A stretch of 64,000 bases of DNA from an uncultured Pseudomonas sp. (GTDB lineage Bacteria > Pseudomonadota > Gammaproteobacteria > Pseudomonadales > Pseudomonadaceae). The notes beneath the pieces were generated by a model. The model had not been told where the DNA came from. It made no database searches and saw only the letters and a program-made list of their open reading frames with translations. Where the stretch lies: the NCBI RefSeq assembly GCF_913777995.1, contig NZ_CAJYVE010000039.1, forward strand, positions 62,001-126,000. Reading direction: 5' to 3'. The position numbers and the translations under genes are program-made. Below are positions 53,150-62,892 of this stretch, piece by piece. How positions within the stretch are numbered: the stretch's first letter is position 1; every line of letters begins with the position of its first letter.

Positions 53150-54583
53150 ATGCGTGTGCCCGCCCCGTTGTTCATATCCGTCGCCCTGCTCGTGCTCGGC
53201 GGCTGCCAGGCCCAGGCGCCGACGCCGCCGACGGCCCCCCTCTCAGCCGCCGAAACGAGCCTGGGCGTCCTGCCTGATGGCGTCGACCACCAGCCACTGC
53301 CCGACCGCTGGTGGTCGCTGTACCGCGACCCGCAGCTCGACCAGCTGGTAGAACGCGCCCTGCAGCACAATCAGGATCTGGCCCAGACCGATGCGCACCT
53401 CAAGGCACTGATGGCTGGCGTTCGCCAGCAACAGGCCGCGCTGTGGCCGAGCACCGAGGTGCAGGCCGGCGTGCCGTATGGGCGCAGCAGCGATGACCAG
53501 GTGCTGGCCGAGGCTCGCGACGGCCATGCCGCCAATCACTGGGAGACCGCGCTCGGCTTCGACCTGGCCTGGCAGCTGGACCTGTATGGGCAACTGCACG
53601 CCGCTATCGCTGCCGCCCAGGCCAGCGTCGAAGCCCAGACCGCCGCCCGCGACCAATTGCGCCTGGGCATCGCCGCGCAGACCAGCCAGGCCTATATCGA
53701 CCTGTGCAGTTTCACGGCACGGCAGGCGGTGTTGCAGCAGTCGCTGGACAACCTCGCCAGCAGCCTGCGGCTCACCGAACGCCAGCACCAGGGCGGGGTA
53801 GCCACCGCCCTCGACAGCCACCGCCTGCAGGTGTTGGCCAGCCGCACGCGTGCCGAGCTGCCGTGGCTGCAGGCGCGCCAGCAGATGGCAGCATTCAGCC
53901 TGGCTCAGCTTACCGGGCAGGCCAATGCCCCTGCCGAACCTTGCCAGCAGCTGCCCAGCCTGAACGCTGCACTGCCCAGCGGCGAGGCCTGGCACCTGCT
54001 GCAACGCCGCCCCGACATCCGCCAGGCCGAACGCCAGTGGCTGGCGGCGCACTGGCGCGCCGAGCAGGTGCGCGGCGACCTGTACCCGCAAGTCAGCCTG
54101 GGCGCGACGCTGAACACCGCCAGCCAGCACCTCGACGGTCTGGGTGACAGCCGCGCCCTGAGCTTCGGCGTCGGGCCGCTGATCCGTTGGCGCTTCCCCA
54201 ACCGGGCCGCCAACCGCGCGCGCCTGGCCGCAGCCGACGCCGAGCGCGAGGCCAGCCTGGCGGCATGGCGCAGCAGCGTACTGAGCGCGCTCAAGGACGT
54301 GCGCAGCGCCCTGGCCCGTTATGCCGGCGAACGCCAGCGCGCCCAGACCCTGGACCAGGCTGCGCAACAGAGCCACGAAGCCTTCGAACTGGCCGAGCGT
54401 GGCTACCGCGCCGGCAGTCTCGACGGCCTGCAGCAACTCGACGCGCAACGTGAACTGATCGCCGCCCAGGCCCAGCAGGTCGAGGCCCGCCAGCGCCAGG
54501 CACACAGCGAGATCGCCCTGTTCCAGGCGCTGGGCGGCGGCTGGCAGGCACCGGACTCATTGACCCCCAAGGAACACCCGTAA
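53150..54583 (+). CDS. Outer-membrane efflux lipoprotein (OprM/NodT type)
   Basis: Outer-membrane channel of 477 residues in the TolC/OMF group. The signal ends in a lipobox (LGGC, C19). The mature part shows the two repeated alpha-barrel segments of OMF proteins, for example LDQLVERALQHNQDLAQTDAHL and the later RRPDIRQAERQWLAAHWRAEQV motif. Its stop overlaps the emrA start (TAATG), so the three efflux genes are coupled. The set would span both membranes as an OMF-HlyD-MFS tripartite pump. Confidence 0.92.
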   Translation: MRVPAPLFISVALLVLGGCQAQAPTPPTAPLSAAETSLGVLPDGVDHQPLPDRWWSLYRDPQLDQLVERALQHNQDLAQTDAHLKALMAGVRQQQAALWPSTEVQAGVPYGRSSDDQVLAEARDGHAANHWETALGFDLAWQLDLYGQLHAAIAAAQASVEAQTAARDQLRLGIAAQTSQAYIDLCSFTARQAVLQQSLDNLASSLRLTERQHQGGVATALDSHRLQVLASRTRAELPWLQARQQMAAFSLAQLTGQANAPAEPCQQLPSLNAALPSGEAWHLLQRRPDIRQAERQWLAAHWRAEQVRGDLYPQVSLGATLNTASQHLDGLGDSRALSFGVGPLIRWRFPNRAANRARLAAADAEREASLAAWRSSVLSALKDVRSALARYAGERQRAQTLDQAAQQSHEAFELAERGYRAGSLDGLQQLDAQRELIAAQAQQVEARQRQAHSEIALFQALGGGWQAPDSLTPKEHP

Positions 54584-55719
54584 TGAACATCGCCATCGAC
54601 GAACAGACCCGTGCCGAACAGGCGCAGATCCTTGCCGCACAACGGCGCAAGCGCCAGCGAGTGGCCGCCAGCGCCCTGCTGGGGGCTATGGCGCTGCTGG
54701 CCGTGGGGGCCTGGTGGCTGCTGTGGGGGCGCTTCTTCGAGAGCACCGACGATGCCTACGTGCGCGCCGACTGGGTCGCGGTCAGCGCGCGAGTCAACGG
54801 TTACGTGGCGCAAGTACTGGTCGAAGACGACCAGCCGGTGCAGGCCGGCCAGGTGCTGCTGCGCATTCGCCAGGATGACTACCAGGCGCATGAGCAACGT
54901 GCCAGTGCCGGCTTGCAGGAGGCCCGTGCCGCGCTGTTGGCGGCCCAGGCCGAACGGCAGGTGGCCGAAGCCGCCGTGGCGCACCAGCGGCAGGCCATCG
55001 ACCAGGCGCGCGCGGCCCTCACCGCCAGCGAGGCCGAGCAGCGTCGCAGCGACCTCGACCTGCGCCGCTACCAGGGTCTGGTACGCGACCAGGCCGCCAC
55101 CACCCAACGCCTGGAAAGCGCCCAGGCCAGCGCGGCCCAGGCCCGTGGCGCGCGGCAGGCGGCGCAGGCGAGCCTGGCCGGCGAACAGCGGCGCCTGGAC
55201 ATGCTGCAGGCGCAGATCGCCCAGGCCGATGCCCACATTGCCCAGGCCCAGGCGGCACGCCAGGCTGCCGAGGCCGACCTGCAACTGGCCGAGCAAGCGT
55301 TGCACGACACCGAGGTGCGCGCCCCGGTCGCCGGCGTGGTCGGCCAGCGCCGCGTGCGCGAGGGCCAGTACCTGGTACCCGGTCAGCCGCTGCTGGCCGT
55401 GGTGCCGGTGGACCAGGCCTACGTGGTGGCCAATTTCAAGGAAACCCAGCTGCAACACATGCGCCCCGGCCAACCGGTGAGCATTCAGGTCGACAGCTAC
55501 CCCGACACGCCGCTGCATGGCCAGGTCAGCAGCGTCTCGCCGGCCTCGGGCAGCGTCTTCGCCCTGCTGCCGTCGGATAACGCCACCGGCAACTTCACCA
55601 AGATCGTGCAGCGCTTCCCGGTGCGCATTCGTCTCGACGCCGGTACGTCGCAGCCGATTCTTCCGGGCATGTCGGTGATCGCCACGGTCGACACGCATCA
55701 GCGCGAGGTGCACCGATGA
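54583..55719 (+). CDS. HlyD-family adaptor (EmrA-like)
   Basis: Membrane-fusion protein of 378 residues with a cytoplasmic N-terminal tail, one membrane helix (about 28-49, VAASALLGAMALLAVGAWWL) and a long coiled-coil hairpin (about 100-240) between two lipoyl halves (DDAYVRADWVAVSARVNGYV, then VRAPVAGVVGQRRVREGQ). That is the EmrA layout rather than the RND adaptor layout. Its ATG abuts the channel gene stop and its end overlaps the MFS gene by 4 bp. Confidence 0.92.
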   Translation: MNIAIDEQTRAEQAQILAAQRRKRQRVAASALLGAMALLAVGAWWLLWGRFFESTDDAYVRADWVAVSARVNGYVAQVLVEDDQPVQAGQVLLRIRQDDYQAHEQRASAGLQEARAALLAAQAERQVAEAAVAHQRQAIDQARAALTASEAEQRRSDLDLRRYQGLVRDQAATTQRLESAQASAAQARGARQAAQASLAGEQRRLDMLQAQIAQADAHIAQAQAARQAAEADLQLAEQALHDTEVRAPVAGVVGQRRVREGQYLVPGQPLLAVVPVDQAYVVANFKETQLQHMRPGQPVSIQVDSYPDTPLHGQVSSVSPASGSVFALLPSDNATGNFTKIVQRFPVRIRLDAGTSQPILPGMSVIATVDTHQREVHR

Positions 55720-57221
55720 GCGCCGAGCGGGTGTCGGCCAAAGCCTGGGTGGCGGTGCTCGGTGGGCTGTTCGGCTGTTTCATGGCGGGGATGAACGTGC
55801 ATGTCACCAGTGCCGCGCTGCCGCAGATCCAGGGCTCGCTGGGCGCCACCTTCGAGGAAGGCTCGTGGATCTCCACCGCCTACCTGGTCGCGGAAATCGT
55901 CATGATCCCGCTGACCGCCTGGCTGGTGCAGGTGTTCTCCCTGCGCCGGGTCATGGGCCTGGGCGCCCTGGTGTTCCTGATTGCCTCGGTGGCCTGCTCG
56001 CTGGCCCCGAACCTGGCGGTGATGATCACCCTGCGGGTCATTCAGGGCGCCGCCGGTGCCGTACTCATCCCGCTGTCGTTCCAGTTGATCATCACCGAGC
56101 TGCCGGCCAGCCGCATGGCCATGGGCATGGCGCTGTTCAGCCTGGCCAACAGCGTGGCCCAGGCCGCCGGCCCCTCGATCGGCGGCTGGCTGACCGATGC
56201 CTGGTCGTGGCGCTGGATCTTCTACCTGCAGCTGTTCCCCGGTATCGCCCTGCTGGCCGCCATCGCCTGGTCGATCGAGGCGCGACCGATGAACCTGGCA
56301 CTGCTGCGGCGTGGCGACTGGCTGGGCATCGCGGCGATGATCCTCGGCCTGGGCGGCCTGCAGATCGTACTGGAGGAAGGCGGCCGCCAGGACTGGTTCG
56401 CCTCACCGTTCATTTTCTGGACCAGCGTGGCTTCGGCCATCGGCCTGGCGGTGTTCATCGCCACCCAGCTATGGGGCGGGCGCAGCTTCATCAACCTGCG
56501 CCTGCTGGGCCGCTACAACTTCGGCGTGGCCAGCGCGGCGATGTTCGTGTTCGGCGGGGCGACCTTCGGCCTGGTGTTCCTGGTACCCAACTACCTGTCG
56601 CAACTGCAGCACTACAGCGCTCACGAGATCGGCGTCAGCCTGATCGCCTATGGCGTCGTGCAGCTGCTGCTGGCGCCGCTGATGCCGCGCCTGATGGGCT
56701 GGAGCAGCCCGAAGATCATGGTCGCCACGGGCTTCGTGATCATGGCCGCCGGCTGCTGGCTGGCCGTGCACCTGGACGCTGACAGTGCGGCCAACGTGAT
56801 CATTCCCTCCACGGTGATTCGTGGCATCGGCCAGCCGTTCATCATGGTCGCCCTGTCGGTGCTGGCGGTGGCCGGGCTGGCCAAGGCCGAGGCCGGCTCG
56901 GCTTCGGCGGTGTTCTCCATGCTGCGCAACTTAGGCGGCGCGGTGGGCACCGCCGTGCTGACGCAATGGGTGGCCAGCCGCGAACGCCTGCATTCGGCGC
57001 GCATCCACGAAACCGTCAGCGTCTTCGAACCGGGCATGCAGGAACGCCTGGGCAGCGTGCTGCACAGCTGGCTACCGGCCGGCCAGGAACAACTGGAAGG
57101 ACTGGCCCGCACCATCCGCCGCGAGGCGTTCCTCATGGCCTATGGCGACGCCTTCTACCTGGCGTGCCTGGCGCTGCTGGCCTGCGCCGTGGCGACCCTG
57201 GCGATGCGCAGCCGCACCTAG
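55716..57221 (+). CDS. DHA2-family MFS efflux transporter (EmrB-like)
   Basis: Inner-membrane drug:proton antiporter of 501 residues with 14 predicted helices. The family motifs are visible: GSLGATFEEGSWISTAYLVA near the start, RVIQGAAGAVLIPLS (motif C-like arginine) around residue 108, and ANSVAQAAGPSIGGWL. It completes the AraC-OMF-EmrA-EmrB unit. Substrates cannot be read from sequence. It is followed by a REP-type inverted repeat. Confidence 0.92.
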   Translation: MSAERVSAKAWVAVLGGLFGCFMAGMNVHVTSAALPQIQGSLGATFEEGSWISTAYLVAEIVMIPLTAWLVQVFSLRRVMGLGALVFLIASVACSLAPNLAVMITLRVIQGAAGAVLIPLSFQLIITELPASRMAMGMALFSLANSVAQAAGPSIGGWLTDAWSWRWIFYLQLFPGIALLAAIAWSIEARPMNLALLRRGDWLGIAAMILGLGGLQIVLEEGGRQDWFASPFIFWTSVASAIGLAVFIATQLWGGRSFINLRLLGRYNFGVASAAMFVFGGATFGLVFLVPNYLSQLQHYSAHEIGVSLIAYGVVQLLLAPLMPRLMGWSSPKIMVATGFVIMAAGCWLAVHLDADSAANVIIPSTVIRGIGQPFIMVALSVLAVAGLAKAEAGSASAVFSMLRNLGGAVGTAVLTQWVASRERLHSARIHETVSVFEPGMQERLGSVLHSWLPAGQEQLEGLARTIRREAFLMAYGDAFYLACLALLACAVATLAMRSRT

Positions 57222-57352: not shown

Positions 57353-57421
57353 AAAGCCGCAAAGCACTTGACCGAACAGTATTGCGGCTGAGGCCGGTCC
57401 TAGCGCTGAATGACGAGGCGC

Positions 57422-59854
57422 TCAAGCCAGCTGCAACTGGCCGTCGCGCAGAATCACTTCACGGCCCAGCCAGCCGGCATCCACCTGCGGCAGCACCGCC
57501 GACGGCTTGCGCAACTCGCGCAGCAGGGTCGAGCCATGCGACAGCCGCCCGCCCATCCGCGCCACCACGCCCCGGGCGGCCTGGTACTGCGCATGCCGGC
57601 CGGGGTCGAGGCTGTCTTCCAGGAGGATGTCCTGGCCGAGGACGCCGCGCACCTCACCGGGGTAGATCATGAACCCGGCCGCCAGCTCGTCACCTTCGCG
57701 GCCATCCTGCCAGAAGCTGCCATCGCGGCTGCGCACATGAGGATATGCCGCGAACCAATGACCGCGCTCGGCCTCGGGCATGGCGTGGTGCAGGCGAAAG
57801 AACACCCGCATCAGGTTGTCGCGGTACCACTCGCGCACCTGCAGGTAGTAGCCGCGCATACCCGGCAGGCCCGCTGCATGCGCCAGGCGGATCAAACGCG
57901 GCCAGGTCGGAAAGGCCTGCAACGGCAGATCGGTCAGCGGCGGCCGTGGCGTGCCGGGGTCGGTTTCCCACGGCAGGCGGTGCGGGCAGTCATCCAGGCT
58001 GCCGTAGGCGGTGGGCGGACGGCCCAGACGGTCACCGCCACTGCTGGCCAGGGCGGTGGCGATGCACAGATTGCCCTGCACCACGAACACATAGAAACGG
58101 CTGAACCAGTCAGCCAGTTGCTGGCCGCTGGCGCCCTGCTCGACCAGTTGCGCCAGCTCACGATCGAAGCGCCGCAGTTGGCGCTCCAGATGCGGCAACT
58201 GGCCCCTGGCGATGCGTTGCATGCGCAGGAACACCGGCAGCGAGCGCAGCACACGCCATGGCCGCAGCGGCAGGTGTGGCGCGGCACCGCCCACCTCGCC
58301 AGCGTATTGGCTGGAGGGAATGCCCCAGTCGGCCAGACGCGCCAGGAACAGGTCGTTGTTGATGTACGAGGCGCCGTCGTACACCGCCGTGAAGGGTTCG
58401 TTGTCCTGCAGCACGCGGGTATCCCAGCGCGCCATGATCGCCGGAATGCTCGCCGCAGCGCGGCGCTGGCCGTACTCGACGAAGCGGCTGGGCTGTGGCG
58501 GCAGGATCTCGGCGATGTTGGCCGCCGTGAGGTGGCGGCGCCAGCCGTAGTCGCTGATCGGCCGATACTGCAGCAGCCACAGCTGCTGGCCGTCCCAGGC
58601 CCACTCCACATCGCCCGGCACATAGTGGAAGACCCGCAGCACGCCCTGCAGGAAGTCCCACAGGCGGACCTGGGTCAGGCCGTGCACGGTAGGGAACTGG
58701 CCACTGCTCCAGGCCTCGCCCAGGCGCGACAGCACCGCCCGCTGCGGGCTGACCAGGCCATCGGCCAGGGCCGCCAGATGCCCCTCGACCCATTCCAGCT
58801 CCACGGCCAGATGGCGCACGAAACCGATGCCGGACACCCGAGGCTCGATGAAGCGCTGCACCACCACCTGCTCGACCCCGGCCCCCAGCAGGTCCTCGAC
58901 CCGGGCATGGACCTCGGCGCCCGGTACACGCAGGTACGTGGTATTCAGCCCGGCATTGGCCGCATCGGCCTGGTCTTCGCCGAAACTGGACGAGCGCACC
59001 GCCCACAAGGCTTGTGGGGCATCGGCCAACAGCGCAGGCAGCCTGGGGTCGGCGGCCTGCTCCAGGTTCAGCGCCATCGGCACCGGCTGCCCGGCCAGTT
59101 GCGCCAGGTGCAGTCGGCCGCCCTTGGTGTGGGCGATAAAACCTGGCTCGCGCGCTTCCAGCCAGGCGGCGAAGCCGGCCGGATCGTCGATCCAGGGGTA
59201 ATGCCCCCACCCCGGCTGCAGGCTGATGCGCAGGTCGGCGCGGGCGAGGATCGCCGACCAGGCGGCCGCCTGCTCACTGCCCAGCAGGCCGTCCTGGTCG
59301 CCCCACACCAGCTCCAGCGGGTCTTCGATCCACTCCAGCAAGGGCAAGGCGGTGTCGGCGCGCAGCAGGTCCCAGTACGGCACGAAGGCCCGGCAGCGCG
59401 CGTAGCCCTCGCCCATGCGCCGATACTGCGCGGCGCTCCAGCGCTGGCGGGAGAACTTGCGGGCGAACAACGTGGGGCGGTGCGCCAGCAGCCAGTGGAT
59501 GGCCTTGCGCACCGGCAACGGCGACATCAGTGCCGGCAAGCGGCGTTGCCAGAGAAAGGCACCCACCGGCGACAACAATACGCTACGCGAGAAATGCCCC
59601 GGCTGGCGTTGCAGCGCGTGCAGCACCAGCAAGGCACTCACCCCGGTGGCGAGGATCGCGCTGCCGCGCCGGGTGGCGGCCAGCAGCGCGCGGGCGTAAC
59701 CGGCCAGGTCGCTGCACGGCGGCTCGGGGTTGTCGCCGAAGCCTGGCAGCTCCAGCGGCACCACCTGGTAATGCTGGAAGTGCGGCAGCACGTCGTCCCA
59801 CCAGCGCGCGCAGCTGCCGTTGCCGGCCAGCAGGTACAGCAACGGCTTGCTCAT
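57422..59854 (-). CDS. Alpha/beta hydrolase fused to a PEP-synthase-like dikinase
   Basis: An 810-residue fusion, second gene of a coupled pair. Residues 1-240 form an alpha/beta hydrolase with a likely triad: S73 in GVSAL (an atypical elbow), D186/D188 in WGDQDGL and H218 in GWGHYPW. Residues 243-432 match the ATP-grasp domain of PEP synthase and rifampin phosphotransferase: KGGRLHLAQLAGQPVP (K244), VRSSSFGEDQADAA (R287), VQRFIEPRVSGIGF and the closing DVEWAWDGQQLWLLQYRPI. Residues about 435-725 are unlike PEP synthase and may bind the substrate. Residues 730-806 are a swivelling phosphohistidine domain with MGGRLSHGSTLLRELRKPSAV, catalytic H773. The order ATP-grasp, middle domain, histidine domain is that of rifampin phosphotransferase. 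The PEP-binding barrel is absent. The substrate is unknown. Confidence 0.85.
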   Translation of the reverse strand: MSKPLLYLLAGNGSCARWWDDVLPHFQHYQVVPLELPGFGDNPEPPCSDLAGYARALLAATRRGSAILATGVSALLVLHALQRQPGHFSRSVLLSPVGAFLWQRRLPALMSPLPVRKAIHWLLAHRPTLFARKFSRQRWSAAQYRRMGEGYARCRAFVPYWDLLRADTALPLLEWIEDPLELVWGDQDGLLGSEQAAAWSAILARADLRISLQPGWGHYPWIDDPAGFAAWLEAREPGFIAHTKGGRLHLAQLAGQPVPMALNLEQAADPRLPALLADAPQALWAVRSSSFGEDQADAANAGLNTTYLRVPGAEVHARVEDLLGAGVEQVVVQRFIEPRVSGIGFVRHLAVELEWVEGHLAALADGLVSPQRAVLSRLGEAWSSGQFPTVHGLTQVRLWDFLQGVLRVFHYVPGDVEWAWDGQQLWLLQYRPISDYGWRRHLTAANIAEILPPQPSRFVEYGQRRAAASIPAIMARWDTRVLQDNEPFTAVYDGASYINNDLFLARLADWGIPSSQYAGEVGGAAPHLPLRPWRVLRSLPVFLRMQRIARGQLPHLERQLRRFDRELAQLVEQGASGQQLADWFSRFYVFVVQGNLCIATALASSGGDRLGRPPTAYGSLDDCPHRLPWETDPGTPRPPLTDLPLQAFPTWPRLIRLAHAAGLPGMRGYYLQVREWYRDNLMRVFFRLHHAMPEAERGHWFAAYPHVRSRDGSFWQDGREGDELAAGFMIYPGEVRGVLGQDILLEDSLDPGRHAQYQAARGVVARMGGRLSHGSTLLRELRKPSAVLPQVDAGWLGREVILRDGQLQLA

Positions 59855-60300
59855 GCGCCACTCCGGTCATGACGGTACAGCCACAGCAGGGGTGGCAACA
59901 GGGCCAGCAGCGCCAGGGCGTCGATCAACAGGTGCGACCAGAGGCTGGCCTGCAGCGAGATGAGCATGTCCTGCGGCGCCCAGAGCAGCAGGCCGGCGAT
60001 CAGCCAGCCCCATACCCGCGGCTGGCGCAGGCGGCTGCCGATGTGCACCAGCGCCAGCATGTACAGCGAGTAGGCCTGCAGGGTCGCGCCGAACAGCGCC
60101 AGCCACCAGGTCTGCTGGGCCCGCGCCGGGGCCGGCGCCAGGCCACCCCAGAAGGCCTGCTCCAGCGAGGTCAGGTAGGCGTCGAACAGGCCGCTGTGGC
60201 CGGCCCAACTCAACAGCACACCACCGCCCAGATGCGCGGCGGCCACCAGATACAGCCAGCGGACCAGCGCCTGGCGTCGAGCAACGGAAGAAGACCGCAT
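59851..60300 (-). CDS. Small four-helix membrane protein of unknown function
   Basis: A 149-residue protein with likely membrane helices at about 12-32, 64-86, 97-116 and 122-142. Loops are short and positively charged on the inside (RHDRSGA tail). The stop overlaps the start of the hydrolase-dikinase gene by 4 bp, so the two are translationally coupled and probably act together. I chose the ATG at 60300; the frame is open to 60387, but the extra 29 residues are polar and extend into the promoter region shared with the TonB receptor gene. No family that I recognise. Confidence 0.75.
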   Translation of the reverse strand: MRSSSVARRQALVRWLYLVAAAHLGGGVLLSWAGHSGLFDAYLTSLEQAFWGGLAPAPARAQQTWWLALFGATLQAYSLYMLALVHIGSRLRQPRVWGWLIAGLLLWAPQDMLISLQASLWSHLLIDALALLALLPPLLWLYRHDRSGA

Positions 60301-60474: not shown

Positions 60475-62892
60475 ATGCCTGCACTGCCACGCCGCCGTTC
60501 GCTCCTGGCGTCTTCGATCTCCCGCTCGACCCTGTACCTGAGCCTGGCCCTCGGCCTGCCAGCCACCCTGCCGGAGCTGGCCCTGGCCGAGACACGCAGC
60601 TTCGAGGTACCGGCCGGAGACCTCGGCTCGGCGCTGACCCGTTTCGCCGGCCAGGCCGGGGTCAGCCTGTCGGTGGACCCGGCGCTGATTCAGGGCCGCC
60701 ACAGCGCCGGGCTGTCGGGCAGCTATGGCGTGGAGGAAGGCTTCCAGCGCCTGTTGCAGGGCAGCGGCCTGCAGCTGCAGGCGGTGGGTGGCGGCTACAC
60801 CCTGGTGCCGGTACCGCAGCGCAGCGGCGCTCTGGAGCTGGGCAGCACCGACATCGTCAGCACCAGCATCCTGTCGTTCAACGGCGACGGCGAGCGCTAC
60901 GCCGGCAACCAGGTGGCGCGGCGTGGCTCACTGGGCCTGCTGGGTTCGCGGGACTTCATGGATACCCCGCTGAGCAGCACCACCTACACCAGCGAAACCG
61001 CCAAGAACCAGCAAGCCCGCACCTTGGGCGACCTGGTGGCCAGCGACCCGTCGGTACGCACCACCAACCCGGCGGGTGGACGCTTCGAGCAGTTCATCAT
61101 CCGCGGCTTCAGCCTGTTCAACACCGATGTGTCCTATAACGGCCTGTACGGCGTGCTGCCCACCTATTCCATCGACATGGAAATGGCCGACCGGGTCGAC
61201 GTATTCAAGGGCACCAACCAACTGCTCAACGGCATTTCGCCGCGCGGCAGCATCGGCGGTGGCGTCAACGTGGTAGCCAAGCGCGCCACCGACAAGCCGA
61301 TCACCGAGTTCACCGGCAGCGTGGCTTCCGACAGCCAGGTCGGCGGCGCCGTGGATGTCGGTCGGCGCTTCGGTGACAACAACGAATACGGCATCCGCTT
61401 CAACGGCGTGAAGCAGTCCGGTGACACCGAGTGGGATCACCAGAACGTCGACCGCGAGCTGTCGGTACTGGGCCTGGACTTCCGTGGCGAGCGCCTGCGC
61501 GTGTCGGCGGACATCGGCCGAACCGAACGCGACACCGATGCCCCGCAGGAGCGTATCCAGGTCGGCGCCAACGCCCAGGTGCCGAGCGCCAGCTCGATCC
61601 ACAAGAACTACGCCCAGGCCTGGAGCTGGGCGAGCACCAACGACACCTTCGGCGACCTCAATGCCGAATACGACATCAGCGATTCCTTCATGGTCTATGG
61701 CGCGGTAGGTGCGCGCGAAAGCAACCATGAGTTCATGCGCCACGCCGTGAGCGTGACCAACAACGCGGGCGACTTCACCATTTCGCCACGCTACTTCACC
61801 CGTGATGAAAGCGTGCGTACCGCCACTGTGGGCGCGCGCAAGTGGTTGCAGACAGGTCCCGTCAGCCACGAGCTGAACATCTCGGCCACGCATTTCTACA
61901 TGGACTTCACCAACGGTGGGGCGCGCTATGCCACCGCTGCCGGCAATATCTACAACCCGGTGCAACGGCCCTTGCCCAATGCGCCGACGCGCCTGGATTC
62001 GAAGGACTACACCGAGAACCGCTTCGACAGCCTGGGCCTGGCCGACACCCTGGGCTTCTTCGATGACCGCCTGCTGGTCACCCTGGGCGGGCGCTTCCAG
62101 CGCGTGCAGGTGGATGACTGGAGCGATGGCGTCAAAGGCGCCACCGCCTACGACGAGAAGAAGTTCTCGCCCTCCGGCGGGGTGGTCTACAAGGTCACCG
62201 ACCAGTGGTCGCTGTATGCCAACTACATGGAAGGCCTGAGCCTGGGCAAGGTGGCGCCTTCCACCTCGATCAATGAAAACCAGATCTTCGCGCCCTTCAT
62301 CAGCCGCCAGATCGAGGTGGGCAGCAAGTACGACCTGGGCAACCTGGCCTTCACCGCCAGTGTGTTCCGGGTCAAGCAGCCGGCCTACGAGACCAACGCC
62401 ACCACGCGGGTCTTCGGCCCCAGCGGCAAGCGCGAGAACACCGGCGTGGAACTGAACGTGTTCGGCGAACCCCTGCAGGGCGTGCGCCTGCTCGGCGGGG
62501 TGATGTACATCCACAGCGAGCTGACCGACACCGTCAACGGTGTCTACGACGGCAACCGTGCACCGGCCACGCCCAAGTACAACGTCAACCTGGGCGGCGA
62601 ATGGGACGTACCGGGCCTGCAGGGCGTGACCCTTACCGCACGCGGTATCTACTCCAGCTCGCAGTACCTGGACCAGGCCAACAGCAAATCCATCGACAGC
62701 TGGGAGCGCTTCGACCTTGGCGCGCGCTATGCCTTCAAGATCAACAGCACGGACGTGACCCTGCGCGCCAATGTCGAGAACGTACTGGACAAGGCCTACT
62801 GGGCCTCGGCCGGCGCCTCCGACGACAGCGAGCCGGGCCTGACCCTGTCGACGCCACGCACCTACCTGTTGTCGGCCACCGTCGGGTTCTGA
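60475..62892 (+). CDS. TonB-dependent siderophore receptor with N-terminal STN domain
   Basis: An 805-residue outer-membrane transporter. A twin-arginine-rich long signal region (MPALPRRRSLLASSISRS, cleavage near ALAE around 39) precedes a secretin/TonB short N-terminal domain (about 41-95, RSFEVPAGDLGSALTRFAGQ) of the transducer type, a plug (about 125-260, with FIIRGFSLFNTDV) and a 22-stranded barrel ending in phenylalanine (LLSATVGF). It looks like hydroxamate/catechol siderophore receptors; the exact siderophore is not readable. STN receptors normally signal through a FecI/FecR pair, and none lies within the window on either side. Confidence 0.92.
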   Translation: MPALPRRRSLLASSISRSTLYLSLALGLPATLPELALAETRSFEVPAGDLGSALTRFAGQAGVSLSVDPALIQGRHSAGLSGSYGVEEGFQRLLQGSGLQLQAVGGGYTLVPVPQRSGALELGSTDIVSTSILSFNGDGERYAGNQVARRGSLGLLGSRDFMDTPLSSTTYTSETAKNQQARTLGDLVASDPSVRTTNPAGGRFEQFIIRGFSLFNTDVSYNGLYGVLPTYSIDMEMADRVDVFKGTNQLLNGISPRGSIGGGVNVVAKRATDKPITEFTGSVASDSQVGGAVDVGRRFGDNNEYGIRFNGVKQSGDTEWDHQNVDRELSVLGLDFRGERLRVSADIGRTERDTDAPQERIQVGANAQVPSASSIHKNYAQAWSWASTNDTFGDLNAEYDISDSFMVYGAVGARESNHEFMRHAVSVTNNAGDFTISPRYFTRDESVRTATVGARKWLQTGPVSHELNISATHFYMDFTNGGARYATAAGNIYNPVQRPLPNAPTRLDSKDYTENRFDSLGLADTLGFFDDRLLVTLGGRFQRVQVDDWSDGVKGATAYDEKKFSPSGGVVYKVTDQWSLYANYMEGLSLGKVAPSTSINENQIFAPFISRQIEVGSKYDLGNLAFTASVFRVKQPAYETNATTRVFGPSGKRENTGVELNVFGEPLQGVRLLGGVMYIHSELTDTVNGVYDGNRAPATPKYNVNLGGEWDVPGLQGVTLTARGIYSSSQYLDQANSKSIDSWERFDLGARYAFKINSTDVTLRANVENVLDKAYWASAGASDDSEPGLTLSTPRTYLLSATVGF

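Follow-up and report, generated by a model that had tools for sequence, protein, structure and literature searches.

A conserved Pseudomonas fusion of a nucleophile-less hydrolase-like domain to a dikinase resembling rifampin phosphotransferase

The locus and its relatives

The window, a 64,000-nucleotide stretch of a contig from an uncultured Pseudomonas sp., carries on its minus strand, at 57422..59854, a single unbroken frame of 810 codons. From the frame, Pfam and homologues, its 810-aa product, here called FUS, reads as a pseudo-alpha/beta-hydrolase joined to a dikinase of the rifampin phosphotransferase (RPH) type. A Pfam search placed Abhydrolase_1 at residues 4-223, PPDK_N, and PEP-utilizers at 741-786 (E 5e-6), all above their Pfam cut-offs. 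Residues 1-237 (59144..59854, minus strand, as are all FUS segments) are predicted to adopt the alpha/beta-hydrolase fold, and residues 238-436 (58547..59143) make up an ATP-grasp domain by Pfam and conserved residues. Residues 437-735 (57650..58546), for which the Pfam search gave no family, are a mostly helical middle domain in the structure model and presumably bind the acceptor; residues 736-810 (57425..57649) are the swivelling phosphohistidine domain with H773. The stop codon of the preceding gene overlaps the FUS start (ATGA); this gene (59851..60300, minus strand) encodes MEM, a 149-aa membrane protein with, by eye, about four hydrophobic helices. FUS has one copy in its own genome (4.76 Mb, 54 contigs). 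An 820-codon plus-strand frame at 57410-59872 was rejected as a gene, since it lies antisense to the conserved coding frame; long antisense frames opposite coding frames are usual in GC-rich DNA.

A tripartite efflux system of EmrAB type (53150-57221), with genes for an outer membrane factor, an adaptor and an MFS pump, is convergent with FUS. Divergent from MEM-FUS is a TonB-dependent siderophore receptor gene with an STN domain (60475-62892), whose start on the opposite strand lies 174 bases away from MEM. This siting, together with the phosphorylation of an antibiotic by RPH (excerpt of PMC4844700), would suit a kinase that inactivates an antibiotic or siderophore. However, when flanks of up to 6 kb were compared across 80 FUS loci, only two had EmrA/B-like genes, and a receptor-like match was likewise limited to two, with identities of 85% and 23%; MEM and a reductase recur instead. 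The efflux and siderophore neighbours were thus rejected as an explanation of FUS, and we regard an inactivating kinase as quite improbable.

The 80 loci come from scanning GTDB species genomes with a pattern; 138 of the 149 candidate stretches encode a relative, and the best 80 of these 138 were kept as rows. They are mostly from Pseudomonas, with 8 from Burkholderia and one each from Rhodoferax, Chitinimonas and a further gammaproteobacterium, and their identity to the window FUS is 70-83%. All but one, L110, which is truncated by a contig end, span at least residues 6-807. A chance join was rejected, as was an assembly join, which the original prediction had named as a way to be wrong: because Pseudomonas, Burkholderia, Rhodoferax and Chitinimonas all have fusion homologues at this level of identity, FUS is an intact, conserved and genuine fusion. 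It is also found on three Burkholderia plasmid records, annotated as 'PEP-utilizing enzyme' in two and unannotated in one.

Within the genus Pseudomonas the distribution of FUS is patchy, since it was found in only 16 of 95 genomes (its own and 94 relatives). In this survey 32 of the 95 genomes matched at E 0.001, and 16 of the matches, short and hydrolase- or kinase-like, were excluded from the count. Besides its own genome, 12 encode FUS as one full-length frame and 3 in two pieces. The two-piece versions, all in Pseudomonas relatives (L014, L015 and L016, in G034, G007 and G010), have three different break points and reflect decay or sequencing error. FUS profile searches of 321 class genomes (1e-12) and 398 phylum genomes (1e-8) each returned its own genome alone, with 2-3 candidates scored per genome and rare relatives possibly missed. 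Neither FUS nor MEM had a PADLOC match at E up to 1, and among the open-access literature matches listed, no title or abstract start describes a hydrolase-dikinase fusion.

The two halves of the chain

The dikinase half retains the residues expected of its type. K244, R287, T306, E417, R431, R674, E675, R678 and H773 are present in every row (best 80 of 138) and Q429 in 79 of the 80, so that the ATP-grasp Lys/Arg/Thr/Glu/Gln/Arg set of RPH-type dikinases is complete and the C-terminal phosphohistidine domain carries its catalytic His. In RPH the key residues are Lys22, Arg117, Thr136 and His825, with Arg666, Glu667 and Lys670 at the acceptor/phosphate site (excerpt of PMC4844700). The ATP-grasp domain is 27-35% identical to 14 PEP-synthase-type ATP-grasp fragments, and the PEP-synthase motifs and H773 domain first read from the window have held up. 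At position 361 (58772-58774), the Glu of the GLGE motif in 78 of the 80 rows, the window FUS and the Chitinimonas protein (L109) have Ala; this substitution could weaken the kinase of the window FUS.

Structure comparison pointed in the same direction. The first model was poor past residue 237 (mean pLDDT 60.5), and the matches listed in searches with it were hydrolase-fold chains. An AF2 model of residues 236-810 reached a mean pLDDT of 74.9, with segments 709-732 and 767-787, the latter including H773, below 50. In a Foldseek search of the PDB with this model, the four best matches were all RPH (E 1.3e-9 to 9.2e-9, 809-888 columns), and the HpeI structure 9goj ranked 19th. Superposition of the whole chain on RPH gives an rmsd of 21 A, so that the likeness of the middle domain comes from its order in the Foldseek match and from its motif rather than from a clean superposition; the R674-E675-x-x-R678 element is invariant in all 80 rows. 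The FUS family profile matches RPH chains weakly, at 281-315, 386-435 and 740-787 alone, with no sequence match in the middle domain. Against the NCBI RPH model NF041857, FUS scores 21.5 bits (cut-off 999) and thus fails as a rifampin phosphotransferase proper. The same model matched 125 of 185 class genomes, never over the cut-off and nearly always at model positions 1-311; we take these matches for PEP-synthase-type proteins from their frame lengths and motifs. The likeness to RPH proposed at the outset is nevertheless supported by domain order, motif residues and fold ranking, and the C-terminal 570 residues of FUS look like a complete RPH-type dikinase.

Swivelling His domains are common to PTS enzyme I (excerpt of PMC4844700), and FUS could be imagined as part of a PTS-like protein or regulatory phosphorelay rather than as a small-molecule kinase. 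We consider this most improbable, given the invariant RPH-type R-E-x-x-R site and the recurrence of MEM and a reductase as upstream partners.

The original prediction read the N-terminal half as a hydrolase with a plausible S73-D186/D188-H218 triad, in which S73 of the G-V-S-A-L segment would be the nucleophile. In three MAFFT modes, however, the nucleophile serines of 11 of 11 GxSxG hydrolases from related genomes align to G71, and S73 falls on the elbow-glycine column. Once an Asp-nucleophile relative is included, the 12 hydrolases have 11 Ser and one Asp at column 71 and, without exception, Gly at column 73. In FUS, G71 is invariant (80/80 rows, best 80 of 138), leaving the elbow with none of the Ser, Cys or Asp nucleophiles of catalytic alpha/beta hydrolases. 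One HMMER alignment sets the elbow differently, with a gap; the G71 register is an alignment result, and under either register no conserved nucleophile is present. Ala10 of the window FUS stands where the HG oxyanion motif has its His. In contrast, the catalytic acid and His are retained: D188 and H218 occur in all 80 rows, and the aligned hydrolases have Asp in 10 of 12 and His in 12 of 12 at these columns.

Residue 73 itself varies. Among the 80 rows (best 80 of 138) it is Asn in 67, Ser in 12 and Gly in 1, encoded by AAT (41), AAC (26), AGC (9), AGT (3) and GGC (1), the Ser and Asn codons being one base apart. Asn occupies the site in 7 Burkholderia rows, in those from Rhodoferax and Chitinimonas, and in L093 and L107. 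The distribution of Ser and Asn requires 5 changes on the tree, compared with a minimum of 9 and a mean of 11.5 in 100 shuffles; the state is clustered yet has changed repeatedly. A Ser73-D188-H218-type triad was therefore rejected, residue 73 being mostly Asn and the GxSxG serines aligning to G71. A bifunctional enzyme, in which one substrate is shared by a kinase and an active serine hydrolase that uses S73 as its nucleophile, would account for the Ser of the window FUS, the invariant D188 and H218 and the predicted hydrolase fold. We find it very improbable, since neither the Asn in 67 of 80 rows nor the Gly of column 73 in hydrolases agrees with a nucleophile at this site.

The fusion and its ATP-grasp and phosphohistidine domains stand as originally described, and the proposed triad does not. 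The hydrolase had also been suspected of being altered or degenerate for want of the final elbow glycine; it does appear altered, by the invariant G71. The suggestion that FUS hydrolyses or esterifies the molecule that it phosphorylates loses its serine mechanism with G71. For 12 chosen pairs the median dN/dS of the four FUS domains is 0.087, 0.098, 0.083 and 0.078, the hydrolase-like domain having 0.087, so that selection holds this domain as tightly as the kinase. Because D188 and H218 are invariant, selection is purifying and Gly occupies the nucleophile column, the domain is best read from its sequence as retained and non-hydrolytic. A serine-hydrolase reading is a likely mistake that annotation could spread, and the G71 alignment corrects it.

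Partner genes

In the survey of the fusion and its partner, the MEM profile was present in exactly the 16 of 95 genomes that carry FUS; the functional unit is wider than FUS, and MEM belongs to it. Within 2.5 kb upstream of FUS and on the same strand, MEM and/or a TIGR01777-type reductase occur at 72 of the 80 loci (best 80 of 138), the reductase being added at 49. MEM stands alone at 23 loci; at 25 it is followed by a reductase with a membrane domain, here called XTM, and at 22 it accompanies a reductase-like stretch without XTM, as a single chain in L035. One locus (L096) has the reductase stretch only and one, the Chitinimonas L109, the XTM-reductase only. The reductase name rests on NCBIfam and Pfam for L035 and L036 and on similarity for the remaining loci. 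Since 8 loci, all from Burkholderia, have neither gene, the partners are not strictly needed. At the window locus MEM is the sole recurring partner; in its genome the XTM domain was absent at 1e-5, and the reductase part is matched elsewhere by hits of 43% and 25% only.

Pfam listed no match for the XTM part of the reductase (L036:4537-5091 and relatives). Thirteen of its residues are invariant in 8 rows (D28, H32, H33, E34, E48, H52, H68, E86, D93, E97, D98, E107 and H111), and from these acidic and His positions XTM could be a metal-binding membrane enzyme.

XTM was found in 6 of 321 class genomes, all among those in which the FUS search found none. In the six regions fetched, DUF4166 lies beside the XTM-reductase in three and about 2.1 kb off in one, two contigs ending close by; a DCC1-like gene is beside it in two, and one region has a Pfam-checked MarR-type regulator. 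Four of these regions (L177, L178, L180 and L182) have the XTM-reductase beside or near DUF4166, two of them with the DCC1-like gene, in genomes where FUS was not found. We know of no description of an XTM-reductase/DUF4166/DCC1-like gene set. In Chitinimonas both kinds of gene set come together, in the order MarR-type regulator, SDR-DoxX_3, XTM-reductase, DUF4166, polyketide-cyclase-like gene and FUS, and in Rhodoferax the order is DCC1-like, MEM, XTM-reductase and FUS. DUF4166 occurs in 2 of the 95 surveyed genomes, neither of the genus Pseudomonas. Because XTM-reductase sets exist without FUS, and given the Chitinimonas and Rhodoferax arrangements, FUS-MEM appears to be an addition to, or a substitute within, a wider membrane-reductase gene set.

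These neighbours bear on a further possibility, namely that FUS is a ligase or condensing enzyme that depends on ATP, of the prodigiosin-ligase type (PigC/RedH). The dikinase would phosphorylate one partner and so create a leaving group, and the other partner would be bound or joined by the hydrolase-like domain. NCBIfam gave weak matches to PigC (E 1.8e-5) and RedH (7.3e-4), both at the DVEW...RP segment. A retained His-Asp pair that lacks a nucleophile would be apt for binding or for acid-base chemistry, and the reductase, with the polyketide-cyclase-like and DUF4166 neighbours in Chitinimonas, would fit a biosynthetic pathway. However, the PigC match spans only about 27 residues, no NRPS/PKS or pigment genes were noticed by eye at 13 loci, and the window locus has MEM alone. 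We judge such a ligase rather unlikely.

Proposed function and likeness to known systems

We favor, with a probability of roughly 0.6, a model in which FUS is a small-molecule dikinase of RPH architecture with a substrate-binding pseudo-hydrolase domain. ATP would be held by residues 238-436, and its beta-phosphate would pass to H773 of the swivelling domain at the C-terminus, yielding AMP and Pi. Phospho-H773 would then swing across to an acceptor that R674, E675 and R678 of the middle domain may position for phosphorylation. The N-terminal domain, having lost its nucleophile, would not cleave esters by the usual mechanism and may be retained for substrate binding or for a non-hydrolytic acid-base role of H218 and D188. 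In Pseudomonas, FUS would act with MEM, often together with the membrane-linked TIGR01777-type reductase; because of these partners, a small and probably hydrophobic alcohol or enol, processed at the inner membrane, is the most likely acceptor. Sequence evidence carries the domain assignments, the conserved residues, the missing nucleophile and the co-occurrence with partners; the catalytic cycle, the task of the hydrolase-like domain and a membrane substrate are inferred. Within this model we place most trust in the dikinase step and least in the membrane substrate. A more specific version, which would be a new enzyme type and which we regard as doubtful, has the hydrolase-like domain carry or prime the acceptor, a membrane-borne metabolite of MEM and the reductase, with phosphorylation coupled to an acid-base step of H218/D188 (condensation, elimination or isomerisation).

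With a small membrane protein as its usual gene neighbour, FUS points to an undescribed small-molecule kinase that works with membrane proteins. MEM is present wherever the searched Pseudomonas relatives carry FUS, which makes the pair a concrete, testable gene set for a phosphorylated metabolite. FUS is unusual in its architecture and partner set, but probably not in its phosphotransfer chemistry.

Among known systems, BioH and other esterases of the alpha/beta-hydrolase group share with FUS the fold, D188 and H218, whereas FUS has Gly at the nucleophile column and Ala10 in place of the HG His. PigC resembles FUS weakly where the ATP-grasp domain ends, scoring 22.9 bits (cut-off 1300) with no full-length match. 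PEP synthase and pyruvate phosphate dikinase also combine ATP-grasp and phosphohistidine domains; their His domain is central and followed by a pyruvate-binding domain, whereas that of FUS is last, and Pfam, searched at E up to 1, gave FUS no match to the PEP/pyruvate-binding C-terminal domain. HpeHI, CreHI and PpsAB, two-component phenolic dikinases described as RPH-like small-molecule dikinases in the excerpted text of PMC12167813, share the three functional parts of FUS. They consist of two chains with RPH-like domains only, whereas FUS combines its parts in a single chain that includes a hydrolase-like domain. By motif, a frame pair in a class genome (L155:16-2593), one frame with a late GGVMSHA motif and the other ATP-grasp-like, resembles HpeHI. 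Because HpeHI and its kin phosphorylate phenols (excerpt of PMC12167813) and other members antibiotics, the acceptor of FUS is not to be guessed from its fold.

The closest counterpart is RPH of Listeria monocytogenes (PDB 5FBS), in which, as far as the excerpt of PMC4844700 goes, an ATP-grasp domain, a middle acceptor domain and a C-terminal phosphohistidine domain follow in the same order. By motif the two share the Lys/Arg/Thr/His set and an R-E-x-x-(K/R) element, which is R-E-x-x-K in RPH and R-E-x-x-R in FUS. The spacing from R287 to T306 in FUS equals that from R117 to T136 in RPH (19 in both), whereas the Lys-to-Arg spacing in the ATP-grasp domain is 43 in FUS and 95 in RPH, and the middle domain has about 300 residues compared with 428 (327-754) in RPH. 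The 237-residue pseudo-hydrolase in front belongs to FUS alone; to the RPH-type dikinases, so far known to act on antibiotics and, from the excerpted source, phenols, FUS adds a nucleophile-less hydrolase domain.
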